NCBI RefSeq assembly: GCF_011492945.1
Contig: NZ_CP045119.1
Coordinates: 1,550,001-1,614,000, forward strand
From: Rubrobacter tropicus
Lineage (GTDB): Bacteria > Actinomycetota > Rubrobacteria > Rubrobacterales > Rubrobacteraceae
Length of the DNA: 64,000 nt
Reading direction: 5' to 3'
The notes beneath the pieces are model-generated. The model saw only the letters and a program-made list of their open reading frames with translations, had not been told where the DNA came from and did no database searches. The position numbers were made by a program, and so were the translations under genes. The first letter of the stretch is position 1. Every line of letters starts with the position of its first letter. Below, piece by piece: positions 29,018 through 37,532 of this stretch.

Positions 29018-30295
29018 CTAGAAGTAGCGCAGGACGACGTAGACGGTGGCCAGGGCCAACGATGCCAGGGTGACGGGGATACCGTAGAGCATGAACTTTA
29101 CGAACGAGATCTTCTGCCCCGCGCGCTCGCTCATCCCGGCGACTACCACGTTGGCCGAGGCGCCTATGAGGGTCAGGTTGCCGCCGAAGTCCGCCCCGAG
29201 CGCGAGCGACCACCACAGGGGCCTGACCTCGGCCTCAGAGAGGCCTTCGGCTTCGGCCAGATCCTGTATTACCGGGATCATGGTCGCCGTGAAGGGTATG
29301 TTGTCGACGATGCCGGAAGCGAGGCCGCTGCCCAGGATGACCACGACGGCCGTCGTCGCCGAGGTTCCCGCGCCCACGCCGGTCAGCGCTTCGGCGATGC
29401 TGCCGACGAAGCCCGTGACCTCGAGCCCGCCGACGAGGATGAAGAGGCCGACGAAAAACAGGAGGGTGGGCCACTCCACGTCGCGCAGGATCTCCTCGAC
29501 GTTCACGCCGGAGTAGAGCATCAGGGCGGCGCCGCCGAAGAGGGCTATCGTCGCGGCTTCGAGGTGGAGGGCCCCGTGGAGGAAGAAGGCCAGGATGACG
29601 AGGCCGAGGATTATCAGGGAGCGGCGGAGCAGGACCCCGTCCCGGATGCTGCCGGCCGCGTCCATGTTGGCGATCACCTCCTCCGCGTTGTCGCTGCCCC
29701 TCAGGTCCTTGCGGAACATCAGGTAGAGGATGCCGAGTACGACGGGGAGCGAGATCAGGACTATCGGGGTCAGGTTTACGACGAAGTCCGCGAAGGTGAG
29801 GCCCGCGGCGCTCCCGATCAGGATGTTCGGCGGGTCCCCTATCAGGGTCGCCGCCCCCCCGATGTTGGACGCCATAACCTGCGTGAGCAGGAACGGCATG
29901 GGCGAGGTGTCCAACGCGTCCGCGATGAGGAACGTCACGGGCACCATGAGGATGACGGTCGTCACGTTGTCCAGAAACGCGGACAGGAAGGCGGTAACGA
30001 GGGCGAGAAGTATCAGGATGCGTCCGGGTTTCGCCCCGCCCCACTGGGCGCTCTTGATGGCGAGGTACTCGAAGACGCCGGTTCGCTCCAGGATCGCCAC
30101 GATCACCATCATCCCCGCGAGGAGCCCTATGGTGTTCCAGTCTATGAACTCGGTTGCGGCCTCCTCCTGGCTGACCACGCCGACCGCCACGAGCACCGCC
30201 GCGCCGAACAGGGCCAAAACCGTCCGGTGCGCCAACTCGAAGGCTATAAAGGCGAGCACGACCACGAAGAGGCCTACCGCAAAGACTTCCTGCAT
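29018..30295 (-). CDS. ArsB/NhaD-family ion transporter
   Basis: 425 residues with about 11-12 membrane segments. Typical family motifs are IDWNTIGLLAGMMVIVAILERTG, FLDNVTTVILMVPV, ASNIGGAATLIGDPPN and GSGLASGIVDNIPFTATM, followed by TLIGASANVVVAG. These two pseudo-repeats are shared by NhaD Na+/H+ antiporters and ArsB-like/SLC13-related carriers; the ion is not certain. A close paralogue lies at 30911-32185. No Shine-Dalgarno is seen, but TATTAT lies 10 nt before the ATG, suggesting a near-leaderless mRNA. Long open frames reading through upstream are artefacts of high GC. Confidence 0.9.
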   Translation of the reverse strand: MQEVFAVGLFVVVLAFIAFELAHRTVLALFGAAVLVAVGVVSQEEAATEFIDWNTIGLLAGMMVIVAILERTGVFEYLAIKSAQWGGAKPGRILILLALVTAFLSAFLDNVTTVILMVPVTFLIADALDTSPMPFLLTQVMASNIGGAATLIGDPPNILIGSAAGLTFADFVVNLTPIVLISLPVVLGILYLMFRKDLRGSDNAEEVIANMDAAGSIRDGVLLRRSLIILGLVILAFFLHGALHLEAATIALFGGAALMLYSGVNVEEILRDVEWPTLLFFVGLFILVGGLEVTGFVGSIAEALTGVGAGTSATTAVVVILGSGLASGIVDNIPFTATMIPVIQDLAEAEGLSEAEVRPLWWSLALGADFGGNLTLIGASANVVVAGMSERAGQKISFVKFMLYGIPVTLASLALATVYVVLRYF

Positions 30296-30352
30296 AGGAT
30301 AGAGGATAATACAATTCGAAAGAGGTTGTCCGCGACGCGCCGAGGAGAACGG

Positions 30353-30817
30353 GTGAGCCAGGGGCCCCGGAGGAACATAAGGGTACAGGACGTGATGCGG
30401 CCGGCCGTGAGCGTCACGCCGGAGACGACCGCGCGGGAGGTCCTGAAGATCCTGCGCGACAACAACGTCCCCGGCGTCCCGGTAGTAAACGAGGGCGGCA
30501 AACTCGAAGGCTTCGTCACCGACGGGCACCTGATGGAGTCGGCCCTTCCCCGCTACATGAAGATGATGGGCAACCTCTCCTTCGTGCCCGACGACGCGGA
30601 CGAGTGGGTCCACTACCTGACCGATGCGGCGGACAAGCCCGTCCGGGAGGTCATGACCACCGAGGTCTCCCAGGTCCCCCTCGGCCGGAGCGAGCTGGCC
30701 GTGGCCCACAAGATGGTGCACGATGGAGTGTCGAGCGTCGTCATAACCGACGGCGGCAAGGTAGTCGGCATCGTCAACCGCCTCGACCTCTACGCCGCGA
30801 TAGAAGGGATCGAATAG
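30353..30817 (+). CDS. CBS-domain pair protein
   Basis: 154 residues from GTG 30353, with GAGGAG before it. Two CBS motifs form a Bateman module: VQDVMRPAVSVTPETTARE with GFVTDGHLM, and VREVMTTEVSQVP with VGIVNRLDLYAAIEG. Such modules sense AMP, ATP or related ligands and often gate transporters or channels. It lies in the 57-bp-spaced centre of two paralogous NhaD/ArsB-type transporter genes, so regulation of these carriers is a reasonable inference. Confidence 0.88.
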   Translation: MSQGPRRNIRVQDVMRPAVSVTPETTAREVLKILRDNNVPGVPVVNEGGKLEGFVTDGHLMESALPRYMKMMGNLSFVPDDADEWVHYLTDAADKPVREVMTTEVSQVPLGRSELAVAHKMVHDGVSSVVITDGGKVVGIVNRLDLYAAIEGIE

Positions 30818-30910
30818 GGCGGACGGCTCCGGGCCGGGAGATTCGGCGCTTGCTAGTATGCCCGCGTGGGAGGAGAGAGGCATCACGGGTTGGCCTGGGG
30901 GGCGGGTTAG

Positions 30911-32185
30911 ATGATGCTCTTCGCCATCGCGGTCTTCGTCGTGGTGCTGTTCGTGTTCGCGACGGACATGGCGCACCGCACGCCGGCGGCCCTCGGGGGG
31001 GCGATACTGCTCGTCATCGCGGGCGCCATCGGCCAGGAGGAGGCGATCGAGGCCGTCCACTGGGAGACTTTGGGTTTGCTTGTCGGGATGATGATCCTGG
31101 TCGGCATCCTCAAGGAGTCGGGCGTCTTCGGGTACCTCGCCATCAAGAGCGCCCAGGCCGCAGGGGGGAGGCCCGGGCTCGTACTGATCTATCTGGCCGC
31201 CATCACGGCCCTCCTCTCGGCCTTCCTGGACAACGTCACGACCGTGCTCCTGATGTTCCCCGTCACGCTCGTCATCGCCCAAATACTCGAGGAAGACCCG
31301 ATCCCCTTCCTCATAGTGGAGGTGCTCGCCTCCAACATAGGGGGGACGGCGACGCTGGTTGGCGACCCGCCGAACATCATCATCGGCACGGTCGTCGAGG
31401 AGCTGACGTTCATGGACTTCATAGTGAACCTGGCGCCCCCGATACTCGTGATCCTGCTCGTCACCCTGGGCCTAGTGTGGCTGGTCCACGGCCGCAAGCT
31501 CCGCACCACCGAGGAGGACCGAAAGGGGATCATGGCGCTGGACGCCGCCGAGGAGATAGAGGACCGCCCGCTGCTCGTCCGGGCCGGACTCGTGTGCGTT
31601 GCGACGGTGATCGGGTTCTTCTTGCAGCAGGTGACGGGCCTCAACCCGGCCGTCGTGGCGCTCGCGGGGGCGGCGGTCGCCATGCTCGTCTGCGGCCCCG
31701 AGGTCGAGGAGGTCTTGCACGAGGTCGAGTGGCCGACGATCCTGTTCTTCGTCGGCCTGTTCGTGATGGTGGGAGCCCTCGAAGCCACGGGGTTCATCGA
31801 CGCGGTGGCCCACTCGCTGGCCTCGGCCTCCGGCTCCCTGGCCGGGACGGCCATGATCGTGATGTGGGGCAGCGGCTTCGCGTCGGGCGTGGTCGACAAC
31901 ATACCCTTCACGGCGACCATGATCCCCGTGATAGAAGGGCTCGCCGAATCCCGCGGCTACGACGCCGCCACGACCGAACCACTCTGGTGGTCGCTCTCTT
32001 TGGGCGCCTGCCTCGGAGGCAACTTCACCCTGATCGGGGCCTCGGCCAACCTCGTGGTCGCCGGCCTCGTCGCCCGCGAAGGCATGACGACCTTCACCTT
32101 TTTGCGCTTCCTGCTCTGGGGCTTCCCGCTCACCCTGGTGGCGCTCGCCATCTCCAGCGCCTACATACTCCTGTTTCAGATTTAG
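30911..32185 (+). CDS. ArsB/NhaD-family ion transporter, paralogue
   Basis: 424 residues, colinear with the protein of 29018-30295 and sharing all core motifs: VHWETLGLLVGMMILVGILKESG, FLDNVTTVLLMFPV, ASNIGGTATLVGDPPN, GSGFASGVVDNIPFTATM and TLIGASANLVVAG. The starts ATG 30911 and 30914 cannot be distinguished, and no good ribosome site is present. It follows the CBS gene by 93 bp on the same strand. Probably a Na+/H+ antiporter-like carrier, although ArsB-like oxyanion export cannot be excluded. Confidence 0.9.
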   Translation: MMLFAIAVFVVVLFVFATDMAHRTPAALGGAILLVIAGAIGQEEAIEAVHWETLGLLVGMMILVGILKESGVFGYLAIKSAQAAGGRPGLVLIYLAAITALLSAFLDNVTTVLLMFPVTLVIAQILEEDPIPFLIVEVLASNIGGTATLVGDPPNIIIGTVVEELTFMDFIVNLAPPILVILLVTLGLVWLVHGRKLRTTEEDRKGIMALDAAEEIEDRPLLVRAGLVCVATVIGFFLQQVTGLNPAVVALAGAAVAMLVCGPEVEEVLHEVEWPTILFFVGLFVMVGALEATGFIDAVAHSLASASGSLAGTAMIVMWGSGFASGVVDNIPFTATMIPVIEGLAESRGYDAATTEPLWWSLSLGACLGGNFTLIGASANLVVAGLVAREGMTTFTFLRFLLWGFPLTLVALAISSAYILLFQI

Positions 32186-32495: not shown

Positions 32496-34043
32496 CTAGT
32501 CGAAGACCTCGACGATCTTCTCCGCCAGCGTGCCCCAGCTCAACGATTGGACGGTGTTGCGCCGTACGGTGTTTGAGTGGTCTCGCCGCTCTTCTTCGGG
32601 CCGGGAGAGAAAGTCCAGAAGGGCCGCCGACAGGTTTTTTTCGAAGTCCTTCACCGGCACCCTGAGGTCGAAGGGGAGACCCTGGCCCACAAACGCTCCC
32701 GCCTCCCGCAATCCCGAGTGGTCGGCCACGAACGGGACGACGCCGGCGGCGGCGAATTCGGCGGCCACGAGGCCGAAGGTTTCAGGAAAGATCGAAGGAA
32801 CCATCGCCACGTCGGCGGCCGGCAGTACCCTGGCGAGCTCCGCGTGCCCGAGCGGGCCCACGAACTCGACGGACTCCCCGAACCCGCCGGCTTCCCGCAG
32901 CAGGGCGCCGGAGTGATCGAAGTGCTCCAGCGGGTTCGCCGGGCCGCCCTCGAGCAGACGCCCGCGCTCTGCCAGGCGCCGGACGTTCTCCTCGTCCCCC
33001 TCGTCGAGCGCCCGGACCAGCGCCTGCAACACCTCGCGGAAGGTGCCGAAGCCTATGAGGAGGAGCCTGGCCCCGGTCTCTTCGTGTACGGGGGCGAAGG
33101 ACGAGATGAGGCTGTGGACGCCCTTTGAGTGGATAAGCTTGCCGAGGTAGACGATCACGGGCGCATCCGAGGTCAAGAGTGGCGCCAGCCGGTCCCCGGC
33201 GTCGGAGTCGTGGGCGCGGGCGTCGTAGGAACCCGCTATCTCTTTGAGGCCCCGGACCAGGTCTTCCGCGTCTTCCGAGCGGTCCAGGCGCTCTTCCAGC
33301 GCCCGCTGCTGGCCGGGTCCGCGTCCCCGCCCTCCGCCCAGGGACTCCAGGATGTCGAGGTCGAGGGCGTCCGGGCGGAAGAGGTCCGTGTCCACGCCGC
33401 CCGGCAGGGAGCGGGTCTTGCCGGCCAGGTGGGGGAAGTCCTCCGCTATGGTGCCGGCGCTGTGGGTCGAGAGGGCCAGGATCTCGACCGCCCCTTCGAG
33501 CCCTTCCCGCGTGAGGTCCATGTATTTCTCGCTCCTGCGCGAGACGTACTGCAGGCAGCTTCCGTGGACTACGCTCGCGTACGGAACACCCGAGCCGTCG
33601 AGCGCCTGGCGCGAGATCAGGGGACCGGGCACGGAATGGTTGGTGATCACCGCCCCCGCCCCCGAAGCCCGGAGCACGACCCCCACGGTCTCGGCGTTGC
33701 GCGCCAGGTAGTTCTCCAACTCCTCGTCCGTGAGGTCCAGAAAAGTCTTTACCCGCCACCCCGGGTAGTCGTCGTAGACGTAGACGGGGAGCAGGTCCCC
33801 GATGCGCGGGTTGTAGACGACGCACCGGCCCGGATACGGCGTCTCCTGCTCGCCAAGCTTTTCTATCCCATTCTCGTCGACGGCCGCGTGCGCGTTCACG
33901 AAATCGTGGGCGAGCGGGCCTTCGTCCTGGCAGAGAAGGTGGACCTCGTGACCAGCGCGCACCAGGGCGCGGCAGAGGTTCTGGACGTAGATGTTGCTCC
34001 CCGTTCCGGAGAGCATGTACCCGTGCGTCATAAGCAGCTTCAC
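32496..34043 (-). CDS. Glycosyltransferase family 4
   Basis: 515 residues from ATG 34043. GT-B fold: the N-terminal domain begins MKLLMTHGYMLSGTGSNIYVQNL (Gly-rich acceptor loop) and contains VVHGSCLQYVSRRSEKYM. The C-terminal domain has VIVYLGKLIHSKGVHSLI and PSIFPETFGLVAAEFAAAGV, the EX7E region that binds the nucleotide sugar. An insertion of about 60 residues (ESLGGGRGRGPGQQ and on) lies between the domains. It transfers a sugar to an unknown glycan or lipid. No biosynthesis cluster surrounds it. Confidence 0.9.
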   Translation of the reverse strand: MKLLMTHGYMLSGTGSNIYVQNLCRALVRAGHEVHLLCQDEGPLAHDFVNAHAAVDENGIEKLGEQETPYPGRCVVYNPRIGDLLPVYVYDDYPGWRVKTFLDLTDEELENYLARNAETVGVVLRASGAGAVITNHSVPGPLISRQALDGSGVPYASVVHGSCLQYVSRRSEKYMDLTREGLEGAVEILALSTHSAGTIAEDFPHLAGKTRSLPGGVDTDLFRPDALDLDILESLGGGRGRGPGQQRALEERLDRSEDAEDLVRGLKEIAGSYDARAHDSDAGDRLAPLLTSDAPVIVYLGKLIHSKGVHSLISSFAPVHEETGARLLLIGFGTFREVLQALVRALDEGDEENVRRLAERGRLLEGGPANPLEHFDHSGALLREAGGFGESVEFVGPLGHAELARVLPAADVAMVPSIFPETFGLVAAEFAAAGVVPFVADHSGLREAGAFVGQGLPFDLRVPVKDFEKNLSAALLDFLSRPEEERRDHSNTVRRNTVQSLSWGTLAEKIVEVFD

Positions 34044-34423
34044 GGCGGCCAGAATACCAGAGCCGCGCGAAAGAGCCCCGAAGCGCGCATGCTTCCGGGC
34101 TCCGGAGATTGCGTGCCACCGTCCGAGCGGGGTCGGAGACGGCTGCCATCAGGGACGCCGACAGGAAGAGGCCGGCCAGCGACTCTGCCCTTCCCCCGCG
34201 GCTCGTAAGGGCGGAGATGATCGCTTCGTTCTCTTCTTCGTCTCGGGTTCCTGAAACGTCTCAAGGATAGCCGCTGCGCATCCCCGCAACCTCCGCGTAA
34301 GTGGGAAAGTTTTTCCGGCCAATTCGGGATGGTCCGGGAGGGGAGGAAGTCTGGTGGGCCAAGCCGTTGGTTAGCCTGTAGTATTTTGGGGGCTGGTTGT
34401 TTGAGACGCGCTAGGAGGATCTG
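34044..34423. other. Intergenic region, no gene seen
   Basis: 380 bp without a supportable frame. A TATTTT -10-like hexamer close to 34382 lies about 35 bp upstream of the redoxin start. Confidence 0.4.
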
Positions 34424-35512
34424 GTGTTTACGAGACGCAAGCGGGACGTCGTTGCGCCTGAGGTTGGGGTCGAGGCCCCGGAGTTCAACCTCCCGAGCGC
34501 CCAGGGGGGACAGCTCAGGTTGAGCATGAGGACCGTGAGGGGGCCCGTCGTGGTCGCCTTCTACAGGCCCGGCAACGAGGAGGACGTCGAATACTTCCGG
34601 GCGTTGGCCGCGAAGGAGCAAGAGATCAACCTCGCCTCGGGTTCCGTCGTCGGCATCGGCGTCGCCGAGCCGTCCGCGGCCCGCGAGTTCGCCAGGGAAT
34701 GCGGCCTGAAGTCCTACCTCCTCTACGACTACGCCAGGGTGACGAGCTCCCAGTGGGGGCTTCTGGAGGGGGACAGGCGCCACGGGTACTCCTCGCGGCC
34801 GGCCGTCTTCATAGTCGGGCCTGACGGAAAGGTCGCCAACGCCTGGACGGGGGAGAGGCCGTCGGCCGAGGAACTTTTGGAGAAGGTCAGCGGCATCACG
34901 GGCCTGCCCAAGAAACCGGAGGAGGAGAAGCCCGCCGCGGAGGAGGCCGAAGCCGGGGGCGAGAAGCCCAAAAAGATGTCGGCCGAGGAGCGGGAGAAGA
35001 TCAAGGCCGAGCGCCGCGCCGCCCGCGAGGCGGGGAAATCCATCAAGACCGCCGAAACCTCGCCGGCGGCGCCCGGCACCGCGGCGGGTGGGGAGCAGCC
35101 CAAAAAGATGTCCAAGGAGGAGCGCGAGCGCATAAAGGCCGAACGCCGCGCCGCCAGGGAGTCGGGCAAGTCCCTGAAGACCGACGCCCCCGGAACGCCC
35201 GCCGAGACGCCCGCTGACGCGCCGAAAAAGATGAGCGCGGAGGAACGGGAGCGTATAAAGACGGAGCGCCGCGCCGCGCGGGAGGCCGGGAAATCCGTGA
35301 AGACCGGGGCCTCGGAGACGGCGACGCCGGCCGGGATCGACGGCGGGGAGAAGGCCCCCGCCGAAGCGTCGGCCGACGCGCCGAAAAAGATGTCCAAAGA
35401 GGAGCGGGAGCGGATCAAAGCCGAGCGCCGGGCGGCGCGGGAGGCGGGCCAATCCCTCAAGAAACCCTCGGGGGACGGGTCTCCCGGGGACGGGAGCGCG
35501 GAGAAGCCCTAG
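34424..35512 (+). CDS. Redoxin-domain protein with four charged C-terminal repeats
   Basis: 362 residues from GTG 34424, with AGGAGG before it. Residues 12-160 are a peroxiredoxin-like thioredoxin fold (APEFNLPSAQGG, VVVAFYRPGN, SRPAVFIVGPDGKV). The peroxidatic Cys expected at about residue 50 is absent (GNEEDVEY); the only Cys is at 93, so ordinary peroxidase chemistry is unlikely. Residues 181-346 hold four near-identical units of the type KKMSKEERERIKAERR plus AAREAGKS, starting at 181, 226, 266 and 319, separated by Pro/Ala/Thr-rich linkers. The units should form highly charged helices. The function of this architecture is unknown. The next gene, a coiled-coil protein, starts 15 bp downstream. 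Confidence 0.85.
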   Translation: MFTRRKRDVVAPEVGVEAPEFNLPSAQGGQLRLSMRTVRGPVVVAFYRPGNEEDVEYFRALAAKEQEINLASGSVVGIGVAEPSAAREFARECGLKSYLLYDYARVTSSQWGLLEGDRRHGYSSRPAVFIVGPDGKVANAWTGERPSAEELLEKVSGITGLPKKPEEEKPAAEEAEAGGEKPKKMSAEEREKIKAERRAAREAGKSIKTAETSPAAPGTAAGGEQPKKMSKEERERIKAERRAARESGKSLKTDAPGTPAETPADAPKKMSAEERERIKTERRAAREAGKSVKTGASETATPAGIDGGEKAPAEASADAPKKMSKEERERIKAERRAAREAGQSLKKPSGDGSPGDGSAEKP

Positions 35513-35527
35513 AGCCGGGGAGAGTAG

Positions 35528-36403
35528 ATGGTGGAAGAAGAGGGGCGGCGCGAGGATAACGGAGGGCCTCCCCCCGAGATCGTCGAGCTTCGGACCAGGA
35601 TCGGGATAAAAGACAACCGCATCCGCGAGCTCCTCGAAGAGGTGACGGCCTCCCGCCTCGCTGCCGACGAGGCCAGGGCCGCGCGTGAAGCGGGTGACGG
35701 CCACGTCGAGGCAATCGAGCGAGACAGGGACAGGCTAAGGGAGCGGGTCCGCGAGCTCGAAACGGAGTCCCGGGGGCGCTGGCGCCGGAGGGAGGGCTCG
35801 GAGCGCCGGATATCGCGCCTCGAACGCGAGATCGAGCGCAAAGACGGCGAGATAGCCCGCCGCGACCACCTCCTGAAGCGAAGCGCCGAAGACCTGGAGG
35901 AGGCGAACAGGGCGGCGCGGGAAGAATCCTCACGCAAAGACGACGCCCTACGGATGGCCCGCGGCAGGGTCGAAGGGTTGGAGAGGGACCTGGAAGGCAG
36001 GGAGGCCGAGATCTCCTCCCTGCAGACGCAATTGGAGGAGGTGCGGGCCGCACTTGACTCCGAGCGGGAGTTTCGGGAGGGCCTCGCCGACCCCGAAAAC
36101 CGCCTGCGGGCCGGTATCGAGCTCTTCAATGACTCTGAAGGCCGCGACTCCACGAACGCCCTCTCCCGCACCCTGGGCAGGCCCGAGGTCCACGTTGGCC
36201 TCGGCGAAGGCGAAGAGCCGCCCACCATCATCTCCTTCACCTGGCAAAACGTCACCTGGCAGACCTACGCCGCAAACCCCAACCCCGCGGTAAGGCCGCC
36301 CCGCGTCTACCTCAAGAGCTCGGGCGAAGACCTCTCCGGCGTAGACCGCGAACCACCAAACGCCCGCGTAGTCGCCGGAGGCCGCGTAGCGCTGGGGCTC
36401 TAG
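35528..36403 (+). CDS. Coiled-coil protein
   Basis: 291 residues. Residues 20-190 are a long, very charged coiled coil (KDNRIRELLEEVTASRLAAD, GRVEGLERDLEGREAEISSL). The C-terminal 90 residues are different: a globular part with TIISFTWQNVTWQTYAANP and RPPRVYLKSSGEDL. No family recognised. It starts 15 bp after the redoxin-repeat gene, so the two are surely cotranscribed and may interact through their charged helices (inference). Confidence 0.8.
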   Translation: MVEEEGRREDNGGPPPEIVELRTRIGIKDNRIRELLEEVTASRLAADEARAAREAGDGHVEAIERDRDRLRERVRELETESRGRWRRREGSERRISRLEREIERKDGEIARRDHLLKRSAEDLEEANRAAREESSRKDDALRMARGRVEGLERDLEGREAEISSLQTQLEEVRAALDSEREFREGLADPENRLRAGIELFNDSEGRDSTNALSRTLGRPEVHVGLGEGEEPPTIISFTWQNVTWQTYAANPNPAVRPPRVYLKSSGEDLSGVDREPPNARVVAGGRVALGL

Positions 36404-37340: not shown

Positions 37341-37532
37341 CTAACCGCCGGTGTCCCGGTCGTCGGGCTCCCCTTCGGGCAGCTCCTTCTTCGCCCCCTT
37401 GTCGCGGCCCAGGGTGTCGACGAAGTCGTGTACGCCGCGGCCCATTGAGCGGAAAAGGTCGGCGATGCGCCGGGGGCCCATGATGAGGAAGACGAGGACG
37501 ACGAGAAGTACCTCGATGAGGCCAAGGGTCAT
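37341..37532 (-). CDS. tatA: TatA/E-like twin-arginine translocase subunit
   Basis: 63 residues. One N-terminal membrane helix (LIEVLLVVLVFLIM), then the hinge and amphipathic helix GPRRIADLFRSMGRGVHDFV and a charged tail: the Tat A/E layout with the FGP/MGP turn. TatA forms the export pore for folded proteins with TatC. Its ATG overlaps the upstream stop (ATGA), so it is translationally coupled to the SRPBCC gene. No tatC is in the window. A Tat substrate (multicopper oxidase) lies a few kb away. Confidence 0.85.
   Translation of the reverse strand: MTLGLIEVLLVVLVFLIMGPRRIADLFRSMGRGVHDFVDTLGRDKGAKKELPEGEPDDRDTGG

Follow-up and report, generated by a model that had tools for sequence, protein, structure and literature searches.

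Cys-less or redox-inactive thioredoxin folds that serve binding are known from calsequestrin, phosducin and ERp29. Among thioredoxin-fold proteins more widely, one position discriminates between groups: it holds Arg in the peroxiredoxins and the cis-Pro in the thioredoxins (PMC2757866). The locus described here lies in a window of 64,000 nucleotides of Rubrobacter tropicus DNA. Its first gene encodes a redoxin that, judged from sequence and predicted fold, is best explained as a pseudoenzyme of the AhpC/TSA superfamily, with a thioredoxin fold that is redox-dead; the second, 15 bp downstream and likewise on the + strand, encodes a long coiled-coil protein (Table 1). Both open reading frames were located correctly in the original prediction, and its remark that no system with such a pairing is known agrees with the literature that we searched, which contained neither a described system of this kind nor a paper on the protein or the pair.

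Table 1. Features of the redoxin locus. Positions are those of the window unless another locus is named.
Feature	Position	Strand	Basis or remark
Family-4 glycosyltransferase, divergent, conserved neighbour	32496..34043	-	Pfam; synteny
Shine-Dalgarno AGGAGG of the redoxin gene	34413..34418	+	sequence; most orthologues likewise have an SD-like sequence ahead of the start
Cys-less redoxin gene, 362 aa, GTG start	34424..35512	+	
AhpC/TSA-type thioredoxin-fold domain, aa 11-162	34454..34909	+	Pfam PF00578, AF2, Foldseek
Dead active site N-E-E-D, aa 51-54, replacing CxxC/TxxC	34574..34585	+	alignments
Pro126, cis-Pro position of CxxC redoxins (Arg in true peroxiredoxins)	34799..34801	+	alignments; rule from PMC2757866
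Charged repeat unit 1, aa 183-209	34970..35050	+	
Charged repeat unit 2, aa 227-253	35102..35182	+	
Charged repeat unit 3, aa 268-294	35225..35305	+	
Charged repeat unit 4, aa 321-347	35384..35464	+	
Coiled-coil partner gene, 291 aa	35528..36403	+	
Long helix/coiled coil of the partner, aa 16-187	35573..36088	+	AF2, one continuous helix
C-terminal domain of the partner, aa 186-291	36083..36400	+	without Pfam family
TatA/B/E-like protein, 63 aa, PF02416, 24 bits (cut-off 21)	37341-37532	-	inside the conserved block
Sigma factor/EF-G-like GTPase/zinc-ribbon loci	L117 1760-5351; L118 1813-5507; L119 5338-9076; L122 4763-8683		

The redoxin matches the Pfam family AhpC-TSA (PF00578) over aa 14-138 with E=9.3e-11 and 42.2 bits, above the gathering score of 26, and this curated cut-off together with the thioredoxin fold recovered by AlphaFold2 and Foldseek places it in the AhpC/TSA superfamily. 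The fold is modelled with confidence (block-mean pLDDT 89-96 over aa 11-160), the top Foldseek match is 3hjp, Bcp4 (TMt 0.86), and the nearest solved relatives, both by sequence and by predicted fold, are PrxQ/BCP proteins of archaea and mycobacteria. There is no apparent transmembrane segment. Attribution to a bacterial family follows from redoxin and coiled-coil genes in genomes of the same family; in a scan of a sequence collection the named homologues are almost all from Rubrobacter or other Rubrobacteraceae.

The active-site loop of the window redoxin, FYRPGNEEDVEYF, is free of Cys. In alignment to PrxQ structures, Asp54 stands at the peroxidatic Cys of the PxxxT/SxxC motif; in alignment with Cys-bearing redoxins it lines up with the second Cys of WCPxC. 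The column of the first Cys of CxxC is occupied in the redoxin clade by Asn, Ser, Asp or a similar residue; N/S/D-x-x-D stands in place of the CxxC active site. The second-Cys column holds Asp in almost all orthologues of the family; the exceptions with Cys are G011 and G023, which belong to a single early-branching genus. It seems very improbable that the redoxin is still catalytic through a non-thiol residue or through its lone Cys93: catalysis does occur in some Cys-less thioredoxin-fold proteins (PMC2757866), but Cys93, the sole Cys of the window redoxin, is missing from nearly all orthologues, and the active-site loop varies and has indels.

Where catalytic peroxiredoxins have Arg, the window redoxin has Pro126 and nearly all orthologues have Pro, with Arg only in those of L007 and L009. 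By sequence, the cis-Pro precedes the third core strand (RPAVF or RPATF in the redoxin clade), as it does in CxxC redoxins. In the tree, the redoxin clade is monophyletic (support 100/100) and groups with the WCPxC redoxins (94/88, one long-branch row left out); the alternative of a grouping with SxxC peroxiredoxins is not rejected (p-AU 0.07). The nearest Cys-bearing relatives therefore appear, with moderate support, to be cis-Pro-bearing WCPxC redoxins and not true peroxiredoxins, and both cysteines of the CxxC motif would consequently have been lost. Of the Cys-less, peroxiredoxin-like domain originally proposed, the absence of an active-site Cys stands and is common to the family, while the peroxiredoxin affiliation gives way to an apparent kinship with WCPxC redoxins. 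With Cys-bearing redoxins as the outgroup, G011 and G023 form the two earliest branches and the Asp-bearing rows group together (93/78); the simplest history, if not a proven one, would be a single change from Cys to Asp.

An Asp can act as a sulfinate mimic, and hyperoxidised peroxiredoxins have chaperone activity. The nearly invariant Asp54 might in this way be a permanent mimic of a hyperoxidised peroxiredoxin, making the protein a constitutive holdase chaperone for which the rod protein would provide oligomeric support. We consider this improbable, given that the catalytic Arg and the Pro/Thr of peroxiredoxins are missing, that the loop varies in length, that CxxC redoxins, rather than 2-Cys peroxiredoxins, are probably its closest kin, and that a literature search for a natural example returned nothing relevant.

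Conservation is distributed unevenly over the domain. Column entropy averages 0.92 over aa 11-160 and reaches 1.12-1.24 in the active-site loop, where changes of length and indels also occur, whereas two segments are nearly fixed (aa 19-42, entropy 0.43; aa 94-103, entropy 0.38). The conserved surface has therefore shifted away from the catalytic site. Together with the confident fold, this pattern is what would be expected if catalysis had been lost and another surface kept.

The four charged repeats that had been predicted in the C-terminal half are present and under selection, with two amendments: the full unit has 27 residues (consensus KKMSxEERERIKAERRAAREAGKSxKT), and the units are spaced unevenly, by 44, 41 and 53 residues, with no regular tandem array. 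AlphaFold2 models exactly four 16-residue helices (187-202, 231-246, 272-287 and 325-340) in disordered linkers. The window units diverge from one another by 3-5 of 27 residues and by 16-20 of 81 nucleotides, with dN/dS between 0.03 and 0.21; differences so few in residues and so many in nucleotides, at low dN/dS, mark them as old, selected copies and not as recent duplications or products of chance. When 26 copies drawn from 10 genomes are compared, 12 of the first 26 positions never vary, and synonymous change is free. Orthologues carry from zero to four units: four in G000, G004, G005 and G025, three in G002 and G007, two in G026, a canonical unit and a related one in G022 and G030, and one in G006 and G008. 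Others, G019, G032 and G034 among them, have a single older SPEEREKRRAER-type unit; G009, G012, G018, G021, G024 and G029 are without any. This variation, and the apparently damaged copy in G017 with its in-frame stop, could be taken as signs of a decaying gene whose repeats arose by replication slippage, the local degeneration against which the original prediction had set itself. Purifying selection on both domain and repeats, the confident fold, and the conservation of Cys loss and pairing across the family leave that account next to no probability, and we reject local decay or slippage.

A search with the repeat unit alone, which had been suggested as a check, gave a match in no protein of the searched relatives besides the redoxin, no second use of the unit in the genome, and no match in plasmid or phage records; an origin of the unit from a mobile element was rejected on the latter result. 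No solved relative of the unit was found in the PDB. All four window units open with AAAAAGATG (at 34970, 35102, 35225 and 35384) despite the GC-rich genome. A role of this sequence as a DNA signal was rejected: orthologues mostly have AAG AAG, which points to local codon choice.

Each unit contains 10-11 basic and 5 acidic residues, for a net charge of +5 to +6, and is extremely hydrophilic. Such helices would also suit a redoxin that is independent of the coiled coil and associates with RNA, DNA or ribosomes, the adjacency of the two genes reflecting conservation of the surrounding block. We regard this as possible though doubtful. The acidic linkers, which bring the charge of the whole tail to only +7, speak against it.

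Redoxin orthologues were found in 29 of the 36 Rubrobacteraceae genomes searched; for two of the 29, the tail end alone is known, at the edge of a contig. The coiled coil lies directly downstream in 23 of the 29, which bears out the suggestion that the two genes co-occur in other genomes, and about 3 kb away in G018; four genomes have the redoxin without it (G017, G023, G032 and G034), and in G003 the contig ends where the pairing would be judged. The two genes of G018 are separated by an opposite-strand gene for what appears to be an FAD-linked oxidase (L067 5157-8153), and the redoxin of this genome is tail-less. Many genomes have the coiled-coil start a few bases from the redoxin stop, with an SD-like sequence inside the 3' end of the redoxin gene. 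In the Cys-retaining G011, the next gene encodes a coiled coil of 152 aa without the C-terminal domain, so the pairing is probably older than the loss of Cys. This close abutment, and the retention of the pair from a deep branch onwards, count against a redoxin that is independent of the coiled coil. On the other side, a redoxin with a repeat unit survives the loss of the coiled coil in G023, G032 and G034, and a mirror-tree analysis with the neighbouring genes as controls gave a redoxin/coiled-coil partial correlation of 0.11, in a small sample, with no signal above the shared background. The partial correlation of redoxin and glycosyltransferase was 0.48, also in a small sample and with the glycosyltransferase itself among the controls. 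The coiled coil in turn occurs without a redoxin orthologue in G016 and G027, both complete genomes, and G012 and G024 retain a full partner beside a repeat-less redoxin; the tail is therefore not essential for the partnership. With each gene lost alone in some genomes, full partners beside repeat-less redoxins and a mirror-tree value near zero, the physical complex originally envisaged loses ground, and an obligate redoxin/coiled-coil complex is weakened as a proposal.

The whole block is conserved: the divergent glycosyltransferase, redoxin, coiled coil, TatA-like protein, SRPBCC protein, metallopeptidase and RarA. The adjacency of redoxin and coiled coil is therefore no independent proof of a shared function, and the fixed order can be cited for a redoxin acting on its own. 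The glycosyltransferase is the sole fixed functional neighbour and gives a weak hint as to what a scaffold might organise. At window 29018-32185 lie two adjacent, divergent multi-helix permease genes of one family, a pair also seen in some relatives (L062, L063 and L069). Among PADLOC models, none matched the redoxin or the glycosyltransferase and those matching the coiled-coil partner were weak; an anti-phage defence system is unsupported on these results.

The partner conforms to its original description as a long coiled coil followed by a separate C-terminal domain in the AlphaFold2 model. The domain has no family in Pfam and no relative among solved structures, and its model is of low confidence. 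It also ends a 608-aa coiled-coil paralogue in the same genome (G000, L061 3180-5006). The gene of this paralogue lies near an SppA-like peptidase gene, and similar long paralogues are present in the majority of the family genomes searched. Other actinobacterial families have the domain after a zinc ribbon, and in L117, L118, L119 and L122 the zinc-ribbon genes lie directly downstream of genes for an EF-G-like GTPase and a sigma factor of the sigma-70 type (checked against Pfam for the GTPase in L117 and L118 and for the sigma factor in L118). Since the rod end domain is common to proteins encoded beside such factors, a link to translation or stress control in Rubrobacter is possible.

Binding rather than catalysis, the reading that the original prediction had leaned to, is favoured by the family-wide loss of Cys, the conserved pairing and the confinement of the unit to the redoxin. 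We give roughly even odds (about 0.5) to the proposal that the redox-dead redoxin acts as a docking module, bears a multivalent basic tail and serves one cytoplasmic scaffold together with the rod protein. The redoxin domain would dock a protein via its hyper-conserved SAQGGQLRLSMRTxRGPV and KSYxLYDY segments, the basic helices would be identical low-affinity sites for a polyanion or a protein surface, and the copy number of the units would tune avidity. The genes of redoxin and rod are neighbours and often abut closely, and the two proteins would act in the same scaffold. More tentatively, and we think it unlikely, the pair may represent a scaffold type of its own, built of a former redoxin as docking module, basic helices tunable by copy number and a rod end domain that possibly links it to translation or stress control. 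The locus is a clear example from nature of how the fold of an antioxidant-type enzyme has become a non-catalytic component, and the bacterial family in which it occurs counts radiation-resistant species among its members. One early-branching genus preserves an intermediate state, with Cys retained and the pairing already in place, and the family provides an evolutionary series in Cys, Asp and repeat number, besides a partner domain that lacks a Pfam family.

Several known systems share parts of this arrangement. The actinobacterial zinc-ribbon proteins of L117, L118, L119 and L122 have the C-terminal domain in common with the coiled-coil partner, but most are without a coiled coil, and no redoxin neighbour was found in their loci. 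The likeness to calsequestrin, phosducin and ERp29 is one of general description, while lineage, tail and partner differ. PrxQ/BCP peroxiredoxins (3hjp Bcp4, 2ywn, 4g2e and 5epf) are the closest solved structures by sequence and fold; in comparison with them, the window redoxin is without the peroxidatic Cys, the Thr and Pro of PxxxTxxC and the catalytic Arg. The WCPxC redoxins of the AhpC/TSA superfamily, exemplified by a paralogue in the same genome (G000:C1:4270211, L112), share the fold, the PF00578 match and the cis-Pro strand, and are, with moderate support, the nearest group in the tree (at 94/88, with the long-branch row omitted). They carry both cysteines of CxxC, whereas the window redoxin has N-E-E-D in their place and, in addition, the repeat tail and the coiled-coil neighbour.
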